In this document: positions 3,679 to 21,680 of the stretch, one piece after another | Position numbering within the stretch: the first letter of the stretch is position 1 | Layout of the letters: the number at the start of each line of letters is the position of its first letter | Assembly (NCBI GenBank): GCA_020345785.1 | Contig: CP070771.1 | Location: forward strand, 6,586,026-6,609,706 | Direction: 5' to 3' | Length of the DNA stretch: 23,681 nucleotides | DNA from: Desulfobacterales bacterium | Lineage (GTDB): Bacteria > Desulfobacterota > Desulfobacteria > Desulfobacterales > JAFDCJ01 | Translations under genes and position numbers: made by a program | Notes under the pieces: model-generated | The model's input: only the letters and a program-made list of their open reading frames with translations | The model's database searches: none | Told to the model about the DNA's origin: nothing

Positions 3679-3948
3679 AAGGTGTCATCCGAACGACGAA
3701 AGTCGAACAAAAAAAAGAACGTCGAACATCGAACGTCCAACTTTGAACATCGAATAATGATGTCGCTGCGCTTCGCGATTTCATTATAAATTTGGCAAGT
3801 TAATTTGCATTCGAAGATCTAATGCCCAAAATTAATGGTTGCTCCGCTGCTTCACCTTTTATTATTCAAAATTCGATGTTGGACGTTCGATGTTCGGTCC
3901 CTTCAATGTTCAACGTGTTCATCTATTAATTCTTACCAGCCTCCGACC
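3679..3948. repeat. Inverted pair of 7-nt-period arms (GAACRTC type), no gene
   Basis: No gene is visible here. A left arm at about 3717-3760 and a right arm at about 3861-3919 are inverted copies around a 100-nt AT-rich loop. Read on the + strand, the left arm is a run of degenerate heptads GAACGTC, GAACATC, GAACGTC, CAACTTT, GAACATC, GAATAAT. The reverse complement of the right arm contains the same ATCGAACGTCCAAC core. The loop contains two similar GC-rich stretches (around 3764-3785 and 3839-3858). The pair could fold into a long stem in RNA or in single-stranded DNA. It belongs to the same type as the element at 16953-17230. Confidence 0.75.
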
Positions 3949-4113: not shown

Positions 4114-4131
4114 GACCTGGGGGACCAGGAA

Positions 4132-4164
4132 ATGAAGATTGATAAATGAAGATTGAATATTTAA
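4132..4164. repeat. 7-nt-period arm (GAAGATT type), left member
   Basis: The sequence reads as heptads GAAGATT, GATAAAT, GAAGATT, GAATATT. Its reverse complement resembles the arm at 4658-4683 (TTCAATC twice), so the two form an inverted pair enclosing the 85-aa gene and the REP doublet. This arm lies where the first helix of the 54-aa paralogue would be expected. Confidence 0.55.
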
Positions 4165-4199
4165 GGATTGGGTCTAATTATAGAATAAAAAATTACCCT

Positions 4200-4457
4200 T
4201 CAAGCAATATTATCATCATCATTGGCATCTGTTTTTTCCAATAACCTGTAATTGCTGTATAGTTTTTTGCCCCCCCCGACCAACAAGCCCAGGTCGATAA
4301 GATAAAGACAGAAATAAACAAATCCAATCTCCAAGGTAGAAGATTCGATGGATTTAATTCTGTCCATCGCCTGAGGAATCTGAAAGAAAAAGGCTATGCT
4401 CATTAGGACAAGTAATGCGCCCCAGACCAGCTGCAAATGTATTTTGTTCTTATCCAT
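4200..4457 (-). CDS. Small two-helix membrane protein of unknown function
   Basis: This 85-aa protein has two predicted membrane helices, about residues 9-26 (VWGALLVLMSIAFFFQI) and 44-63 (IGFVYFCLYLIDLGLLVGGG). They are separated by a short loop (PQAMDRIKSIES) and followed by a basic-aromatic stretch (GGGKKLYSNYRLLEK) and an acidic C terminus. I do not recognise the family. The downstream frame at 3949-4113 is a clear paralogue, which supports both being coding. The glycine motif is encoded by a run of eight G followed by C and six A (complement of 4263-4277), a potential slippage site. Its flanks are repetitive DNA on both sides. Confidence 0.65.
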   Translation of the reverse strand: MDKNKIHLQLVWGALLVLMSIAFFFQIPQAMDRIKSIESSTLEIGFVYFCLYLIDLGLLVGGGKKLYSNYRLLEKTDANDDDNIA

Positions 4458-4490
4458 TGATAAAAAAGTTCACTTAATATGCTCTTGCGA

Positions 4491-4560
4491 TGGGAGCGGT
4501 TTTTTACCGCGATAAAAACCGCAACCCTATATAACCAATCGCGGCTGAAAGCCGCTCCCA
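4491..4560. repeat. REP-like palindrome doublet
   Basis: Two 23-bp units in inverted orientation lie at 4491-4513 and 4538-4560. Each has the form TGGGAGCGG, short loop, CCGCGAT, so each can form its own hairpin, and the two also pair with each other. This is the arrangement of bacterial REP/BIME elements, which are mobilised by RAYT (Y1-type) transposases elsewhere in a genome; no RAYT gene lies in this window. It sits upstream of the 85-aa gene and downstream of the crotonase gene, where it could also act as a transcript end. Confidence 0.75.
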
Positions 4561-4657
4561 CAGACAGATACCTATTTTATGCTCCCGCCTGTGCGGTGTG
4601 GCAGATATTAACAAAATCATTCGTATAAAAATTTTAGAAATAGACAGGATTCCATAA

Positions 4658-4683
4658 TTATTCAATCTTCAATCGACAATAGT
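4658..4683. repeat. 7-nt-period arm (TTCAATC type), right member
   Basis: The stretch contains TTCAATC twice in direct heptad succession and is the inverted counterpart of the arm at 4132-4164. It ends essentially at the stop codon of the crotonase gene. Confidence 0.5.
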
Positions 4684-5474
4684 CATTCCGCAAGGGCTCC
4701 TTTAAATTCCGCTTTGCGCTTTTCGAGAAAGGCGCTGGTGCCCTCTTTGGCATCCGGGCTGGCGTAGCAGAGGGAAAATGCGTCGATCTCAATATTGCAG
4801 CCGCTCGCAAGGTCCACATTCATCCCATTGTTGATCGCCTGTTTGGCGGCTCTCAGGGAAGCTTTTCCTTTGGAGGCAACAGCACGGGCGGTTTGAATCA
4901 CTTCTTCCATGAGATTATCCTGGGGGACGACCTTGTTGACCAAACCAATTTGAAGGGCTTCTTCGGCTGATATCATTTTACCGGTAAAGATCAGTTCTTT
5001 GGCCATATTGGTGCCGATCAATCGTGGCAGTCTCTGGGTGCCGCCGAAACCCGGAATGACGCCGAGATTTATTTCCGGCTGGCCGAATTTGGCGTTTTCC
5101 GATGCATAGATAAAATCGCAGGCAATGGCAATTTCGGTGCCGCCGCCCAGGGCAAATCCGTTTACCGCCGCGATCACTGTGATCGGCAGCTGCTGCAGCT
5201 TGTTAATAATAATGTGTCCGCTTGTGGCGAAAACCTTGGCTTTAAGGGAGTCAAATGTAGCCAGTTCGGATATGTCGGCGCCCGCCACAAAGGATTTGTC
5301 CCCGGCACCGGTCAGGATGAGTACGCGAATGTTTTCGTCCGCCGCAATATTGTCCAGGGCCTGGGAAAATTCAGCAAGCAGCGCGCTATTGAGGGCATTT
5401 AGCGCCTTGGGCCGGTTAAAGGTGATGGTAGCAATTCCCTCTTTGACTTCATAGACGATGTTTTCGTATGCCAT
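4683..5474 (-). CDS. Enoyl-CoA hydratase (crotonase family)
   Basis: This 263-aa protein is a full-length crotonase that adds water to trans-2-enoyl-CoA thioesters in beta-oxidation or butyrate-type pathways. The oxyanion-hole region is FVAGADISEL (residues 62-71), with GGGTEIAIACD (110-120) and GQPEINLGVIPGFGGTQRLPRL following. The two catalytic glutamates of true hydratases are both present (E114 and E134). The sequence resembles short-chain enoyl-CoA/crotonyl-CoA hydratases, but exact chain-length preference cannot be read from it. The start is supported by GGAGG about 7 nt upstream (TGACGGAGGTTAAAATG). The gene stands alone behind its own promoter at 5517-5545. Confidence 0.93.
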   Translation of the reverse strand: MAYENIVYEVKEGIATITFNRPKALNALNSALLAEFSQALDNIAADENIRVLILTGAGDKSFVAGADISELATFDSLKAKVFATSGHIIINKLQQLPITVIAAVNGFALGGGTEIAIACDFIYASENAKFGQPEINLGVIPGFGGTQRLPRLIGTNMAKELIFTGKMISAEEALQIGLVNKVVPQDNLMEEVIQTARAVASKGKASLRAAKQAINNGMNVDLASGCNIEIDAFSLCYASPDAKEGTSAFLEKRKAEFKGALAE

Positions 5475-5545: not shown

Positions 5546-5561
5546 ATTGAAAGCGAGGAAA

Positions 5562-5712
5562 TGTCCGTTGTCAATTGTCCATTGTCGGTTGCACAATGAT
5601 TGATGAATGTATTTTTAAAGAGTCAGGCAACGCTGCAACCGGATTTGAGGTTCTCAAGGTACATTTGAGGTTCTCAGGGTACAACGGACCACGGACCACC
5701 GACAACTGACAC
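5562..5712. repeat. Inverted pair of 7-nt-period arms (TTGTCNN type) with a tandem 20-bp repeat inside
   Basis: The left arm at about 5562-5593 reads as heptads TTGTCAA, TTGTCCA, TTGTCGG. The right arm at about 5681-5712 is CGGACCA, CGGACCA, CCGACAA, CTGACAC. The arms are approximately inverted relative to each other around about 90 nt. Within the loop a 20-bp unit (ATTTGAGGTTCTCARGGTAC) is repeated in tandem at 5643-5662 and 5663-5682 with one difference. No gene lies in this gap. Confidence 0.6.
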
Positions 5713-5727
5713 TTTTTTATAAGTAGT

Positions 5728-6984: not shown

Positions 6985-7310
6985 AGAAAGGCGAATCCAC
7001 CTGAGGCGGATAAATATCGAATGATGAATATCGAATATCGAATGTCGAAGGAAGGAATTCTATCGATTTTTTATAGTAACGGTTGAAAGTTAGCCAAAGA
7101 ATGGCGGAGCAGATAGAAGTCAGGATCTATAATCTTGAAGGCCGATTAATTGATATTTGCCACCAGTATAAGAACGGCAAAAAACGGCAAGAAAAAATTC
7201 CCGGAATTGGATAGTATTGAATTATTGGTGAGGTCTTATTTTAAATAGTTAGAGCGAAGCGACTCCACCCTTCGACATTTGATATTCGATATTCTGCGGT
7301 TCGCTTTTTT
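6985..7310 (+). mobile_element. Four-helix-bundle cassette, internally deleted copy
   Basis: This segment matches the larger cassette at 21087-21680 along both ends. The left heptad arm (to about 7054) has GAATATC units ending in GTCGAAGGAAGG. A conserved leader (CTATCGATTTTTTATAG) follows, then the start of the gene at 7101. The matching trailer (TAGTATTGAATTAT through TAGAGCGAAGCGA) precedes the right arm at 7269-7310 (CCTTCGACATT, GATATTC units, TTCTGCGGTTCGCTTTTT). The left end is disturbed by extra sequence (TCCACCTGAGGCGGATAA) after GCGAA. About 288 nt of the coding core are missing relative to the other copy. Confidence 0.7.
7101..7214 (+). pseudogene. Deletion remnant of a four-helix-bundle (23S rRNA intervening-sequence-type) protein gene
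   Basis: The frame starts MAEQIEVRIYNLEGRLID, almost identical to the start of the copy at 21175. It then jumps to sequence corresponding to the last part of that gene (ATTTGCCACCAGTATAAGAAC here, ATTTGTCACCAGCATAAGAAC there). The jump removes about 288 nt (equivalent to 21228-21515) and shifts the reading frame. The remaining 37 codons therefore end in an unrelated tail. The protein family forms small helical bundles; this remnant cannot fold that way and is almost certainly non-functional. Confidence 0.8.
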
Positions 7311-9440: not shown

Positions 9441-10051
9441 ATTATCATTGAGTTGTCGGTTGTTCTTGCTCGGTTGTCCGGTTCATAAAGATATAAATAC
9501 CCTCACCCCGACAAGCCGCAACAGATTGCCACCAAGGCACGAAGCAAAACCTTTGGTTAATATTAATTTCTTCGAGTCTTTGGGTCTTAGTGGCTAAAAT
9601 ATTTTTTCATAAAATGCAAAGAAATGACCATTAACTTAAAACGCCTGCGCTTGAACTATGGCCTATAATAACAGATTTATCTGAAAGTTCCAAACCCTTA
9701 AGTATTTGGTCCCGGGGCAACATCAAAGCAAATATTCAACCGGCTCATCAGAAGGATTGACAAGACCATAAAATCACAAATCTCAAGCACCAAATCACAA
9801 ATAAATACCAAATTCCAATATTCAATGACCAGAACCTTCACCACACTTCTATCATATCGCTTCACAAACCCAGGTCTACCGGTGATGATGCCGTCAGGCA
9901 AATCGGTAGACGAAACCTTTGTTTGGTCCACCGGCGGCGGATGGGTCATTGGGATTTGTTTGGAATTTGATTTTTGTGATTTGGGATATAATGAATCTAT
10001 TTTCGGATTGTTCAAAACTATCCAACCAATTGGCGTCATACAAATTGCAGA
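9441..10051. repeat. Gap of 611 bp with three short-period repeat structures, no gene
   Basis: Three separate structures are present. At 9451-9485 a single arm of TTGTCNN heptads lies directly upstream of the amidase gene. At 9525-9600 an inverted pair with 8-nt period is seen (GCCACCAAGGCACGAA against the reverse complement GCCACTAAGACCCAAA) around a short AT-rich loop. At 9771-9990 there is a larger inverted pair, listed separately. Open frames crossing this gap consist of repeat sequence and match nothing I recognise. Confidence 0.65.
9771..9990. repeat. Inverted-repeat element of CAAATNN heptads, copy 1
   Basis: The left arm (9771-9830) contains CAAATCT, CAAGCAC, CAAATCA, CAAATAA, then ATACCAA, ATTCCAA and TATTCAA, ending in TTCAATGACC. 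The right arm (9944-9990) begins GGTCATTG, and its reverse complement carries the same CAAAT / ATTCCAA units. The enclosed 113 nt have no recognisable gene. The element at 14606-14848 has nearly the same left arm and the same inner ends (CAATGACC / GGTCATTG). Confidence 0.75.
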
Positions 10052-14540: not shown

Positions 14541-14896
14541 TTCTATCGTATTTCGAATCAGATATTAACCACTCCTAAATTTTGAAATAAATGCTCCAAC
14601 CATTGTAAATAACAAATAACAAGCACCAACTTACAAATAAATCTCAAATTCCAATTTTCAATGACCAAAACGCAAACAAGAAGCATCGTAGTCATTTGCA
14701 TTATTCTAATTATCGATGAACAAAGTTTAGTAAGTCATTAGAATGATCATATAAAAATTTGGCCTGTGAGGAGCTGAGCCGTTTCGAATTTTGAATTTCG
14801 GTCATTGGAAATTGTTTGATATTTGGTGCTTGTTATTTGTAATTTCCAATAGATCTCCGTGCAAAATAATATGAGGATATTGGTCTTCTTAAACAA
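14541..14896. repeat. Gap with CAAATNN heptad inverted-repeat element, copy 2
   Basis: The element spans about 14606-14848. The left arm reads CAAATAA, CAAGCAC, CAACTTA, CAAATAA, then ATCTCAA, ATTCCAA and TTTTCAA, ending in CAATGACC. The right arm starts GGTCATTG at 14800 and ends near TTGTTATTTGTAATTT; its reverse complement repeats CAAATAA, CAAGCAC, CAAATAT. A short extra palindrome (CGAATTTTGAATTTCG) lies at 14785-14800. The loop of about 130 nt has no gene I recognise. The element separates the dGTPase-like gene from UPF0280 on the same strand. Confidence 0.75.
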
Positions 14897-16847: not shown

Positions 16848-17248
16848 AGTTCAGACCTTTTAGTTCCCCGATGTTCTTGATCTTTAGGTTGTTTAGAGGC
16901 CATTTAAGGTTTCAGGTGTCCGCGGCCAGTTTGATCGATAAAAGAAACTAATGAACGTCGAACATCGAACGTTTAACGTCCAACATCGAATGTTGAATTC
17001 TGTCAATTTAAAAATTGCTGAACAACACGTGGCGCATACGCCTCTACCCAGCGTCAGGCGCTACCGCAGCGCTAGCGTGTGCACAATGTGTGCGGTGCGC
17101 GATCGACTTAACCATTCGAAATCCGACTCGGTTGAGCGCGTTGCAGACTTCGGTTCATCTTTGATCGACAAAGCGTAGCGCCATCCATATTGGACGTTCG
17201 AAGTTGGATGTTCGATGTTCGACGTTCAATCTATTTACTATTACAACT
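16848..17248. repeat. Gap with GAACRTC-type inverted heptad arms
   Basis: The left arm (16953-17000) reads GAACGTC, GAACATC, GAACGTT, TAACGTC, CAACATC, GAATGTT. The right arm (17190-17230) reads TTGGACG, TTCGAAG, TTGGATG, TTCGATG, TTCGACG, TTCAATC, and is its inverted counterpart. The roughly 190-nt interior is GC-rich with several short palindromic GCGC stretches. It contains fragments of open frame but nothing I can assign. Confidence 0.7.
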
Positions 17249-17740
17249 TCATGAAGTTTCATGGGAGGTTTCAGGACTGTCTTCATCAAACAATCTCTTA
17301 ATCCTATCCATAGAACGCTCGGTATGGCTTCCCCGCCAAAAGATTCGCTCGCATTGTCGACACAGGCTGAAATTATCATGGGTTTCCCAGACGTAATCGG
17401 GCACCAGGCCGTATACGGTCTCTTTGCCGATATTGACAATAGGGGTATTGCATTCAATGCATCTTGAAAAAGGACGGATTTCGTTAAAGGTGATCGCCAG
17501 GTCGTCGACTACCTGCGCCAGCTGTTCAAACAGGTCGTTGGCTTCAATGAATATCAGCCTGCGCGCGGCAAACCTCTGGCGAATCTTTCCTGTTCGCGTC
17601 AGCAGGACCCGTGTTTCATCCAGGTGTTCATAAAACCAATTGCTCGAGACATCCGTCTCACAAATGGTATCAAACCCCATCAGGCGCAGCCATTTGGCCA
17701 GCTTTCCCAAGGTTCTGTCTGTGGCGAAAGAGAAATTCAT
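17249..17740 (-). CDS. Mut7-C (DUF82) PIN-like RNase domain protein with zinc ribbon
   Basis: This 163-aa protein matches the Mut7-C family, a PIN-like nuclease fold fused to a zinc ribbon. The N terminus is FATDRTLGKLAKWLRLMGFD, with the expected first acidic residue D8. The zinc-ribbon cysteines are C94/C97 (SRCIECN) and C127/C130 (LCRQCERIFWRGSH). One oddity is that the usual LLTRD motif reads LLTRT (T50), so one conserved acidic residue of the presumed active site is missing. The enzyme may therefore be weak or inactive, or may use another acidic residue. Immediately before the ATG lie GGTTCAR-type heptads instead of a Shine-Dalgarno sequence. Confidence 0.85.
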   Translation of the reverse strand: MNFSFATDRTLGKLAKWLRLMGFDTICETDVSSNWFYEHLDETRVLLTRTGKIRQRFAARRLIFIEANDLFEQLAQVVDDLAITFNEIRPFSRCIECNTPIVNIGKETVYGLVPDYVWETHDNFSLCRQCERIFWRGSHTERSMDRIKRLFDEDSPETSHETS

Positions 17741-17778
17741 GGTTCAAGGTTCAGGGTTCAGGGTTCAAAGGTTAAAAG
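17741..17778. repeat. 7-nt-period tract (GGTTCAR) abutting a start codon
   Basis: On the + strand the units are GGTTCAA, GGTTCAG, GGTTCAG, GGTTCAA, then AGGTTAA. Seen from the Mut7-C gene they read TTGAACC/CTGAACC right up to its ATG. I find no inverted partner nearby. Confidence 0.7.
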
Positions 17779-17890
17779 GCTATTACCGGCGCAGTTCCGT
17801 CGCCGGCTGATCCCTGTTCGACCTTTTGTTTTCCTGCCTGCCACATTTAAATTCCTCAGCCCTCATCATTCAGACCTCAATGTTTTACTC

Positions 17891-17984
17891 TATGCCCTCT
17901 GCCCTCTGCGCTTTGCCGTTTTTCCGACTTCCGCATGCTAGCCGCGGTGTCTTGTCCCGTCGTAGCTCGAAGAGCGAAGACGGG
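17891..17984. repeat. TGCCCTC heptads and a GC-rich hairpin
   Basis: TGCCCTC, TGCCCTC, TGCGCTT, TGCCG run in direct succession at about 17893-17918. Further on, CCCGTCGTAGCT and AGCGAAGACGGG at 17956-17984 form an imperfect hairpin. The stretch lies between the ends of the Mut7-C and DnaJ genes and has no coding signal. Confidence 0.5.
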
Positions 17985-18458: not shown

Positions 18459-18560
18459 GCCCGAGATTATAAATTAAAGTGGCGATCGGGTCAACGGTGG
18501 TGTCCCTGCTTCTGCTGTGAAATGATCTTTCCGCTAAAGTTCCCGAAATTTAAACCGATC

Positions 18561-18606
18561 TATAATTATCCAAATGAAAACATGATCGACTCCTTGGCCA
18601 GGGGAA
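18561..18606 (+). promoter_or_regulatory. -10 box and Shine-Dalgarno that fix the kinase-like gene start
   Basis: A consensus TATAAT lies at 18561-18566; the region 17 nt further upstream (GTTCCC) is a poor -35. AGGGGAA at 18600-18606 lies 8 nt before the ATG at 18615. If transcription starts near 18573, an ATG at 18522 in the same frame is outside the transcript, which favours 18615 as the true start. Confidence 0.45.
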
Positions 18607-18614
18607 TTTTTCAG

Positions 18615-21053
18615 ATGCGCAATTTTTTAAAAACGGTCGTTATACTCAGCGTTCTCGCAGTTGTTGGTGCCGCTTTATTCATTCATTTTACCGATAAGGA
18701 GGTTATCATATTAAATGACGGCACCATCAAAACAGTCGACGCAACCTGGCAATCCGGCGATGCCGTCTTCTTTGAAATTGACGGTCAGATCGATTTTTAT
18801 GACAAGGATGAAATAAAAACCTACGGCAAACGAAATTTAATGCATTTCATCCTGGGAGTTAAACTGAAGGTAACCTCAAAATGGGACCAACTTGAATCCG
18901 ACCTGGACAAGCTCCTCAAAAAAAACAATCTCCCCACCAACATTAATTTGAATACTTCTCTGATTCTGCTGGCTATTATTTTTGTCTTTTTTGTGTGGCT
19001 GCGGAGGAAGCGCTCAGTCAAAGAAATCCCCAAAGACAACGCCGGGCAGGAACAGAAGGTGGTGTCCGAGGAAATCAAAGATGAACTCCCTAACCGCCTG
19101 GATATCGTTCGTTTCTTTTTAAACCTGTTTAAGTATCAAATCGGCGCGGAGCCGGATGCCAAAGCCGAGTTTGTGCCGTTGATGTCCAAAACTGCGGGGC
19201 CCAATAATATTTATGAACTGCGTGTCAAGCACACGGAAGATTGGGCCAAACGGCGCATGACCATCGGACCGCTGGGTGAAGAAGCCGGCAGCAAAAGCAA
19301 ATGCTATTATGTGATCTACGACGTGCATATGGTAGTCAAGGTCCCGGCCAGGCCGATAACCGACTTCGAGCGATACATCGAAAGTATTAAAAAGGAAGTG
19401 GCCATTGTCAACAAGCTCATTCCCAAGGAGTGCATCATACCCAAAGTGTCTGTAATTCTTGGGTTGATTCATACATTCCCTTACAGTGAGGATATCCCTG
19501 CCGATCGCCTGGAAGAAAAATACATCGATTGGGTGCGCCGATCGACTGAATTTCAAGACTTTTTAAAGATCAACAGCACCTTTGTCTATTTCATGGATTT
19601 ATCCCAATACTATTTTCTGGGCCATATTCTCGAAGAATTGCATGACATCAAAAATCTGATTGCTCGGGAAATTTTTGAAAACGCCGAAATCATATTCGAA
19701 CCGGCCAAATTTAAAGGTCGCTACGGTGTCGAAAATGATGCTATCTTTGAAGTAAGGGAAGTATACAATCGAGTTGAAGCCGAAATTCGCAAGCTGGTTG
19801 CCCAAAACGGCATTAACGCCAACATTCCGCTCTATCAATTTCAATCCTGGTTTTATACGCATCTGGCCGAAAGGGAAGTAACCGAAGACAGCGGCAATTA
19901 CCCCGAAACTTTCATTAAGCAATTGAATCTCGCAATAAAAAAGGCCATACAGGACAATTTAGAGGTAATTGATGCCTACCGCAAAACCATAAAAAACTAT
20001 GTTTACATGTCCTCCTTTGAACAAAACAGTGCCCAGATGACCGCCATCACGATTAACCTGCTTGATATTCTGGCCTGGTTCAGACAAAAACGAGTGTCCA
20101 TGCGTGATCTCAAGCCTGACAATTTATTTGTGGCCGGAGACCCTGAAAGATACCCGTTGTTCTTGCGATCCGACCGGGAGTTTTCACTGGGCATTATTGA
20201 TGTTGAGACCGCTGTCGATTTTGAAAAATCCAAATACACCAAGACGAAACAGCCTCTGTTGGGCGGCACCCCTTTCTACGCGACGCCTTCACATTTTATT
20301 AGAAATGAAGTGCTGACAATTAAATACAACAATCTTGGCAAAATTCTGCACCTGCAGGACTGGCATGCGACCCTGGTAATGATTTACAAAGTGATCACAG
20401 GCGAGCTGCTGTTTGATCAGACCGCCAAACTGTTCGGCGATTTGCGCGACATGATGATCCGTGCCAATAGACCTGAAAATTATCACAGCGACATTTTTGA
20501 AGAAGCCAGTCGAATGTTCTGGCACAGTGCTGTTGTTGAATTTCAGGTCAAACTCGGTGAGAAGGAAAAAACGCTGAAGGCGATTGAGGTGCGCCTGCCT
20601 GAAACGGTCAAGTATATGTTCGGCAAAGTGGTGGTCAAGGAGCGTAAATCGCTTGCCCTGGCAATCAAAGAATGTGTCGAGTCGCAGAACATTTTTGAAA
20701 AACAGCAGATCCGTGAACAATTAATGAATTCATCCTATGCCAAAACCTGCCAGTTTAAAACAGAGCTGGAAAACAATGCCAGGCGTTCACAAAATTCCAA
20801 AGCCCTGCGAGTGGAAGCGATCACCTTTTTACACCGGCTGGCGGACTTGAAAGCGTTATTCGGACAACAAATCTACATGCACAAGCTGTTGTCAAAGCCT
20901 GGCGCCGTGGTGACGGCCCATGATATTTTGACATTTATGTTTAATGTGGTGCTAAACAATATGTATCCACCCCAATGGAAGCCCCTGTTCGGCGAGGCCG
21001 TTAATATGTGTGACATGCCGGACGAAGAAACCGCCATGGAGGCGACCGCTTGA
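18615..21053 (+). CDS. Membrane-anchored divergent Ser/Thr protein kinase-like protein
   Basis: This 812-aa protein has a first membrane helix (about residues 5-24), an exported segment of about 85 residues with an SH3-like beta pattern (LNDGTIKTVDATWQSGDAVF), and a second helix (about 114-130) followed by RRKR. The large cytosolic part after that carries kinase-fold signatures in order. A glycine-loop-like GPLGEEAGSKSKCYYVIYD precedes VVKV (Lys242) and KKEVAIV (Glu261). The catalytic loop is MRDLKPDNLF (Asp498, Asn503; the usual His is Met), with IIDVETA (Asp529) in place of DFG. An activation-segment end GTPFYATPSH is followed by the alphaF-like DWHATLVMIYKVITGELLF. Lys242 to Asp498 spans 256 residues against about 95 in ordinary kinases, so a helical insertion of about 160 residues sits in the domain. 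All key polar residues are present, so activity is plausible. Confidence 0.72.
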   Translation: MRNFLKTVVILSVLAVVGAALFIHFTDKEVIILNDGTIKTVDATWQSGDAVFFEIDGQIDFYDKDEIKTYGKRNLMHFILGVKLKVTSKWDQLESDLDKLLKKNNLPTNINLNTSLILLAIIFVFFVWLRRKRSVKEIPKDNAGQEQKVVSEEIKDELPNRLDIVRFFLNLFKYQIGAEPDAKAEFVPLMSKTAGPNNIYELRVKHTEDWAKRRMTIGPLGEEAGSKSKCYYVIYDVHMVVKVPARPITDFERYIESIKKEVAIVNKLIPKECIIPKVSVILGLIHTFPYSEDIPADRLEEKYIDWVRRSTEFQDFLKINSTFVYFMDLSQYYFLGHILEELHDIKNLIAREIFENAEIIFEPAKFKGRYGVENDAIFEVREVYNRVEAEIRKLVAQNGINANIPLYQFQSWFYTHLAEREVTEDSGNYPETFIKQLNLAIKKAIQDNLEVIDAYRKTIKNYVYMSSFEQNSAQMTAITINLLDILAWFRQKRVSMRDLKPDNLFVAGDPERYPLFLRSDREFSLGIIDVETAVDFEKSKYTKTKQPLLGGTPFYATPSHFIRNEVLTIKYNNLGKILHLQDWHATLVMIYKVITGELLFDQTAKLFGDLRDMMIRANRPENYHSDIFEEASRMFWHSAVVEFQVKLGEKEKTLKAIEVRLPETVKYMFGKVVVKERKSLALAIKECVESQNIFEKQQIREQLMNSSYAKTCQFKTELENNARRSQNSKALRVEAITFLHRLADLKALFGQQIYMHKLLSKPGAVVTAHDILTFMFNVVLNNMYPPQWKPLFGEAVNMCDMPDEETAMEATA

Positions 21054-21086
21054 ATACCAAATGCTGAATATCCAAGTAGATGAATT

Positions 21087-21680
21087 AAAAGCGAATATCG
21101 AATAATGAATATCGAATGTCGAAGGAAGGAATGCTATCGATTTTTTATAGAATCGGTTGAAGGGTAACCAAAGAATGGCTGAGCAAATAGAGGACAGGAC
21201 CTATAATCTTGAAGGTCGATTAATTGATTTTGCTGTTCGTATAATTCGGACGGCGGAATCCTTGCCCAATACCCAATACACAGGTAGCCAATCATATTGC
21301 CGGGCAACTGATCCGTTGCGGCACCTCGCCTGCTCCCAACTATGGGGAAGCCCAAAGCGCCGAATCGCGAGCCGATTTTATCCACAAAATGAAAATATGC
21401 CTTAAAGAGCTGCGTGAGACAAGAGTCTGGCTATTGATGATTGTAAGAGCCATGCTGATTAAACCAGTCTCCAAGCTCGACTCCCTGATTCAAGAGAACA
21501 ATGAGCTAATCTCTATATTTGTCACCAGCATAAGAACTGCAAAAAAGGGCAAGAAAAAAATTCCCATAGCTGTGTAGTATTGAATTATAGTTGAGGTCTT
21601 ATTTTTAAATAGCTAGAGCGAAGCGATTCCACCCTTCGACATTCGACATTCGATATTCGATATTCTGCGGTTCGCTTTTT
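21087..21680 (+). mobile_element. Four-helix-bundle cassette with terminal inverted heptad repeats
   Basis: The left end (21087-21126) starts AAAAGCGAA, followed by ATATCGAAT units and GTCGAAGGAAGG. The right end (21633-21680) is its inverted counterpart: CCTTCGACATTCGACATTCG, GATATTC units, then TTCGCTTTTT. Between them lie a leader (CTATCGATTTTTTATAG), a broken gene of the 23S rRNA intervening-sequence protein type, and a trailer. Leader, trailer and both arms recur at 6985-7310. No transposase and no clear target-site duplication are seen. The cassette lies between the kinase-like gene and the promoter of the Memo-AMMECR1 gene. Confidence 0.75.
21175..21577 (+). pseudogene. Four-helix-bundle protein gene broken by a 7-bp tandem duplication
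   Basis: The first frame reads MAEQIEDRTYNLEGRLIDFA and on to ESLPNTQYTG. The second, shifted frame continues with VANHIAGQLIRCGTSPAPNY, then GEAQSAESRADFIHKMKICL, KELRETRVW and a C-terminal NNELISIFVTSIRTAKKGKK to the TAG at 21575-21577. Together they give a complete member of the four-helix-bundle family (PF05635-like) of 23S rRNA intervening sequences, related to the Avd accessory protein of diversity-generating retroelements. At the break CCCAATA occurs twice in tandem (21265-21271, 21272-21278). Removing one copy restores ESLPNTQVANHIAGQL and a single 133-codon frame. The rest of the gene is intact, so the mutation looks recent, or is possibly reversible. Confidence 0.85.

Follow-up and report, generated by a model that had tools for sequence, protein, structure and literature searches.

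The genes for the four-helix-bundle proteins of the TIGR02436 family are, as a general trait of the family, enclosed by inverted arms of tandem seven-base units (heptads), and the resulting cassettes probably form a dispersed family of mobile elements, the full unit being a heptad arm, a four-helix-bundle gene and an inverted heptad arm. One such cassette occupies positions 21082-21680 of the window, by which we mean the whole 23,681-nt stretch of Desulfobacterales DNA analysed. Tandem heptads of the AATATCG type are followed by the gene and then by inverted heptads, all described here on the forward strand. The left arm (21082-21131), in which AAAAGCGAA precedes the heptads, was recognised as a period-7 island and as inverted repeat I5; the right arm (21623-21680), with TTCGCTTTTT at its end, was recognised as an inverted repeat and a period-7 island and by the conservation of its end. 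Between 21093-21132 and 21626-21665, the two arms are 88% complementary over 40 nt. The gene (21175-21577), located by profile match and ORF reading, contains a frameshift near 21262-21276, and its two halves are read in different frames. The downstream part matches TIGR02436 (23S rRNA intervening sequence (IVS) protein, Avd-like) with 30.6 bits, at a cut-off of 24, and Pfam family PF05635 with 13.5 bits, below the cut-off of 33.8. An earlier note on this DNA had proposed a four-helix-bundle gene; the family assignment stands, for a window gene that is broken. Between the gene and the right arm is a trailer (21578-21622) common to both window copies (direct repeats D2 and D7).

The other copy, at 6985-7310, is an internal deletion that has kept the two ends of the gene and lost a middle part of about 285 bp. 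It consists of a left end and arm (6985-7061), a gene remnant in which the first and last gene parts are fused (7098-7214; direct repeats D1 and D9, with the junction read directly), and the trailer with the right arm (7239-7310), all on the forward strand; both arm-bearing parts were found by repeat search and as period-7 islands. The copies match at 86% identity (7010-7157 versus 21084-21231) and 93% identity (7239-7294 versus 21603-21658), and the arms of the deleted copy (7026-7056 and 7264-7294) are 90% complementary over 31 nt. These values confirm that the two cassettes share arms, leader, gene ends and trailer, and that their ends are inverted heptad repeats, both as the earlier note had it. 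A large segmental duplication was ruled out, as the similarity ends at the cassette ends. Within the left heptads of the deleted copy there is a small palindrome with terminal GGCGGAT (6990-7012), also seen in loci L117, L125 and L133. The cassette has no transposase of its own, and its IVS-like architecture is located outside rRNA, again as claimed before: no rRNA match was found in the window or in 20 related gene loci, and Rfam searches of the window with seven loci (two chance-level hits) and of the 20 gene loci gave nothing that passed the threshold. The predicted RNA fold of the window cassette has a z-score of -5.0.

Four samples of the family were surveyed: (a) the 80 closest among 492 relatives from a species-genome collection, representing at least 12 phyla; (b) the best 30 family matches from 10 genomes; (c) the best 30 loci, one per genome, from 118 genomes belonging to the same phylum-level group as genome G001, 69 of which carry TIGR02436; and (d) 14 of the 23 plasmid records with a match. 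Samples (b) and (c) are top-scoring, not random. Of the 151 different TIGR02436 genes, six were dropped and 145 had enough flanking sequence to be scored; in one scoring round, 4 of 81 loci were left out as too short. The cut-offs were chosen by us: an arm score of 30 for the survey of 145 genes, an arm score of 34 for the comparison with control ORFs and for sample (c) alone, and a heptad value of 0.5. At a score of 30, inverted arms flank 110 of the 145 genes, while 35 have none at this cut-off; by sample, the counts are (a) 66/76, (b) 16/27, (c) 16/28 and (d) 12/14. The best arm period among the 110 is 7 in 98 cases, 8 in seven and another value in five. Sample (c) alone, with one of 30 loci dropped, gives period 7 as the best at 24 of 29 loci and period 8 at five, and 17 of 29 reach the score of 34. 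Twelve of the 14 plasmid loci have a lag-7 value of at least 0.6, 11 of the 12 being cyanobacterial.

Heptad arms are strongly associated with the family genes, being present at 50 of 96 of them versus 3 of 662 other ORFs of the same loci; all three of these control ORFs adjoin a family gene. Inverted flanks scoring 34 are found at 67 of the 96 and at 17 of the 662, respectively. Compared with each other, the two arms of a locus score a median of 45.5, versus 19 for arms taken from different loci, 13% of which reach 30, and the 62 left flanks with a clear run contain 49 different heptads. Heptads are thus particular to their locus, and arms from different loci are mostly unlike; what stays fixed is the period, while the sequence varies. 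Clear runs most commonly contain 4-5 units (27/62 on the left, 28/50 on the right), partly because shorter runs miss the cut-off. The excess of G-U-compatible mismatches in the arms, which would be expected if RNA pairing were selected, is weak (119 versus 90, p = 0.053). A second type of arm without heptads, CCATAAGCGCTAACTTAA, was seen beside related genes in Brocadiaceae and Desulfobacterales (loci L005-L007, L016, L020, L047 and L196). Genome G042 is unusually rich in the family for its 2.1 Mb, with 14 matches and 56 first-look candidates.

Heptad arrays also occur apart from the gene. The window contains 17 period-7 islands, 14 of them in seven inverted pairs (scores 27-55), one with a partner near 9950 and two unpaired. 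Hairpins without a four-helix-bundle gene are formed at 3705-3900 (arm score 47), 14602-14851 (AAATAAC type, 48) and 16949-17243 (45), and a weak one at 5557-5720 (27). A weaker hairpin at 4130-4693 (34) surrounds an 85-residue ORF on the reverse strand (4200-4457), which by eye looks membrane-bound and does not belong to the four-helix-bundle family. The array with the complementary stretch near 9950 is at 9784-9827 (score 34). The islands at 17726-17784 (GGTTCAG) and 17877-17933 (CCCTCTG) are close together and mutually non-complementary, with no inverted partner nearby. Over 668 kb, comprising 80 loci and the window, we counted 228 period-7 islands versus 8 in one first-order resampling. 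The corresponding numbers are 24 versus 5 for period 6, 21 versus 4 for period 8 and 93 versus 10 for period 9, the last excess being expected because 9 is a multiple of 3 and the DNA is coding. Within the phylum-level group, 20 genomes with at least five TIGR02436 genes have 59 islands in 302 kb (19 from one genome), and 20 genomes without the gene have six in 292 kb (three of the 20 gene-less stretches being all N). With kinship ignored, any island is present in 13 of the 20 gene-rich versus 5 of the 20 gene-less genomes (p = 0.025, or 0.049 excluding the N stretches).

Judged by its genes, the nearest relatives of the window are Desulfobacterales-type bins, and the cassette as query found a match in all 12 genomes of related loci. 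Genomes G001 and G002 yielded at least 72 and at least 67 matching pieces, with 40 of 256 and 40 of 118 candidates scored; these are not counts of elements, because an element may be represented by two or more pieces and the scoring covered only part of the candidates. Of 40 places examined in the two genomes, two contain a full cassette and the other 38 a short or partial copy; 36 of 38 copies lie outside any ORF of at least 120 residues. Short copies with both ends measure about 130-190 bp and consist of heptads, a short common core and inverted heptads. Three copies in G002 (L131-L133) retain the 3' end of the gene, as the deleted window copy does. Dispersed copies with sharp ends had been anticipated by the earlier note, and the ends are sharp. 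On the right, conservation falls from about 0.9 to 0.3-0.5 directly past TTCGCTTTT(T) (19 and 18 aligned copies in the two genomes); on the left, it drops outside AAAAGCGAA (13 and 9 copies, in an alignment anchored on that motif). A weak GAAACT is found immediately outside 12 of 23 left ends versus 2 of 23 farther out. Predicted RNA folds of three short copies have z-scores of -5.0 to -5.7, and that of a lone left arm has -0.6, as expected because its partner arm is absent. The earlier proposal of a non-autonomous element fits these short copies, but the gene-bearing form falls outside that support. Right in the main, the earlier note had missed the family-wide heptad arms, the coexistence of gene-bearing and gene-less forms and the frameshift in the window.

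The core of some short copies in G001 is split between two GAGCGA by a CCTCCGGCTCGTAGGGG...CGCCTACGCCTCGGA palindrome, which looks like a nested insertion; stretches containing it include L116, L117, L119, L121, L124 and L126-L129. The motif CTCCGGCTCG is present in 10 of the 40 stretches examined.

Sites without the cassette were found both for the window and on plasmids, as had likewise been anticipated. In the window, the cassette directly follows the ORF at 18522-21053, relatives of which are present in 16 of 30 genomes. The spot after this ORF contains a full cassette in G001, a short copy in G002, no cassette in G016 and, by eye, a different heptad hairpin in G018; in G013 and G014, 95 and 205 nt, respectively, are followed by a shortened next gene. 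The G001 relative of the window gene has an open frame and the same upstream gene, and the two full cassettes may reflect plain inheritance.

Two plasmid sites in Nostoc could be compared base by base. In Nostoc C052, a CGTAATT-type cassette of about 420 bp is located on plasmid pC052_A; at its place, pC052_D of the same strain and three more plasmids have 188-198 bp of other DNA. Between pC052_A and pC052_D, flank identity is 91.7% on the left and 99.9% on the right. In three Nostoc plasmids a DNA cytosine methyltransferase gene, whole in two relatives, is split by a CAATTCG-type cassette, 328 bp being replaced by about 466 bp; the three probably descend from one event. Target DNA was thus lost at both sites, at insertion or later, and no target-site duplication was established at either. 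None of the six cassette-free sequences compared contains a heptad array (lag-7 runs of 3.7-6.8 versus 26 per filled arm), and therefore the gene and its arms arrived together. The occurrence of CAATTCG in undisturbed methyltransferase sequence suggested that heptads are taken from target DNA; as a rule for all copies this was ruled out, the same heptads being shared by copies from separate locations in G001 and G002. At the L302 site, four of the seven listed records with both flanks were compared. Relatives without the cassette exist for L303, too diverged for exact junctions, and for L299 and L309 most of the matches listed are one-sided.

Several plasmid cassettes in cyanobacteria and one member of the Chloroflexota (L300, L303, L305, L306, L307 and L311) are located in defence clusters. 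They separate drmD from a methyltransferase or restriction gene (helicase/drmD beside a methyltransferase or MmeI gene), cas1 from cas2, or csx2 from cas1. No common neighbour function was seen across the annotated plasmid loci. Viral contigs, scanned with the neighbour gene 18522-21053 only, gave no relative; the four-helix-bundle protein itself has distant relatives in two phage records that lack annotation.

The four-helix-bundle gene is under purifying selection, with a median dN/dS of 0.106 for 77 usable pairs of 82 overlapping pairs at 80-97% identity (five had no usable dS). It has also crossed phyla, on top of strong clustering by phylum: in a tree of 72 of the 80 proteins, with four very long branches, there are 25 phylum changes, where the minimum possible is 13 and the shuffled mean 47, contamination of metagenome bins being a possible contributor. 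Profile matches to solved structures are to 2rld (1e-34) and 2gsc (1.8e-21), each with five chains; 2gsc is the Xanthomonas S23p XCC0516, and the Xanthomonas S23p is described as a homopentamer (PMC4990558).

Might the arms be resident regulatory hairpins, acting at transcript ends, in stability or in pausing, with the protein an RNA-binding regulator that benefits the host and moves by ordinary horizontal transfer? Such roles are suggested for cyanobacterial STRRs (PMC2670836), and the position of 36 of the 38 copies outside ORFs, the good RNA folds and the purifying selection on the protein all agree with them. Cassettes that split a methyltransferase gene and replace target DNA do not, and neither do the dozens of near-copies in G001 and G002 or the lack of a shared neighbour function in the annotated plasmid loci, making this account unlikely. 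We regard it as very unlikely that the heptads are products of polymerase slippage among which the gene merely sits. Over-representation of heptanucleotides and the idea of slippage are both found in the literature (PMC4679880, PMC4692102), but slippage accounts neither for a single gene family being flanked left and right by inverted arms that match each other nor for a common core sequence in dispersed copies. The gene could also have entered the loop of pre-existing heptad hairpins that spread by themselves, a notion invited by gene-less hairpins outnumbering gene-bearing ones in the window, G001 and G002. The six cassette-free sequences lack heptads, however, and the leader and trailer are common to full, deleted and short copies, leaving this order of events very improbable.

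Two further accounts place an enzyme elsewhere in the cell. PF05635 is related to Avd of the diversity-generating retroelements (PMC10053308), which would suit retrohoming in trans by an Avd-like protein and a distant reverse transcriptase. Among the 118 genomes, RVT_1 was found in 25 of the 69 with TIGR02436 versus 15 of the 49 without (p = 0.56); not being enriched, reverse transcriptase was ruled out as a specific partner. The cassette also differs from diversity-generating retroelements in that 44 of the 69 carriers have no RVT_1, although incomplete bins may hide some, and retrohoming appears highly improbable. Movement of the kind known for REP elements, driven in trans by a Y1 (HUH) transposase, is favoured by the association of Y1_Tnp with the gene (56/69 versus 23/49, p = 1.4e-4). 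About as strong, however, is the association of ParE, taken as an unrelated accessory gene (58/69 versus 27/49); 13 of the 69 carriers have no Y1_Tnp; and heptad arms were found at none of 26 Y1_Tnp genes (3 of 29 Y1 loci and 2 of 30 gene loci having been dropped), in which the cassette is unlike REP/RAYT. The Y1 transposase was ruled out as a specific partner on the ParE association and the absence of heptad flanks, and an action in trans is extremely unlikely.

Among known systems, the 23S rRNA IVSs resemble the cassette in their protein family and in a gene enclosed by complementary ends. Tandem heptamers directly precede the S23p start codon in the Coxiella IVS, where RNase III cuts at the first repeat (PMC4990558). 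The same paper mentions earlier suggestions that IVSs are mobile elements or remnants of transposition, and its conclusion is that S23p is probably unexpressed in Coxiella (PMC4990558). The cassette differs from the IVSs in being present in intergenic DNA, operons and genes, in many copies per genome and in gene-less forms. Its location outside rRNA makes it a variant of the IVS kind rather than an IVS, 23S rRNA being the place that defines these; the rRNA IVSs may be the rRNA-inserted form of the element. The nearest precedent is the Coxiella paper, which notes heptamers in one IVS (PMC4990558); no report of heptad arms as a general rule of this family was found in the searches of open-access full texts.

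The STRRs of cyanobacteria are 7-bp repeats able to form hairpins (PMC2670836), like the cassette arms by description, but in the cassette a gene lies inside the hairpin, and the rule extends across many phyla. In two Xanthomonas genomes, 70 and 75 inverted pairs of GGGAATC heptad arrays are described as intergenic, with no general association with mobile elements and with raised stability nearby (PMC4692102). These pairs resemble the arms, and Xanthomonas also encodes S23p; they differ in being read as quadruplex-forming (PMC4692102). Likened by their published descriptions, the IVSs, the STRRs and the Xanthomonas heptads could be one thing. Heptads are also described in Beggiatoaceae (PMC4679880) and Geobacter (PMC2700814). 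The short copies are like MITEs in being short and gene-less, with terminal inverted repeats, derivation by internal deletion and many sharp-ended copies; the cassette is unlike them in its period-7 arms and in a full-length form that carries TIGR02436 rather than a transposase, Y1_Tnp being the transposase family searched for.

For a mobile family, then, count the deleted intermediates (the second window copy and three in G002), and against it the 35 armless genes of 145 and the loss of target DNA at both resolved sites. If such an element is transcribed, base pairing of its arms would give a long RNA stem open to cleavage by RNase III and, going by published work on IVSs, insertion into operons, gene ends and 23S rRNA would therefore be tolerable; an rRNA IVS would be the same element located in rRNA. 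The four-helix-bundle protein may bind the repeat units and take part in copying or insertion, the chemistry of which could come from host enzymes, and the short copies may be internally deleted forms served in trans. Tentatively, one might go further and think of a class of element whose sole protein is a non-enzymatic, pentameric four-helix bundle. Each subunit would hold one 7-nt unit and the hairpin would be re-folded or re-primed, the host copying it to new sites; units would be renewed in step, such that the sequence could drift but the period could not. The rRNA IVSs, STRR hairpins and Xanthomonas heptads would then all be members. Five subunits correspond to about 35 nt, and the arms commonly have 4-5 units. 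We consider this version possible but doubtful.

A mobile family of this kind would join three puzzles: the IVSs with an S23p gene in rRNA, the over-represented seven-base repeats and the role of the 'four helix bundle protein'. Hitchhiking would offer a simple reason for the presence of the gene within CRISPR and DISARM operons, and the cassettes in defence clusters may account for the listing of the 23S rRNA IVP with CRISPR-linked genes (PMC10910872). The hairpin packages look like a widespread, little-understood form of mobile DNA, and the familiar inserts of ribosomal RNA genes may be an instance of it.
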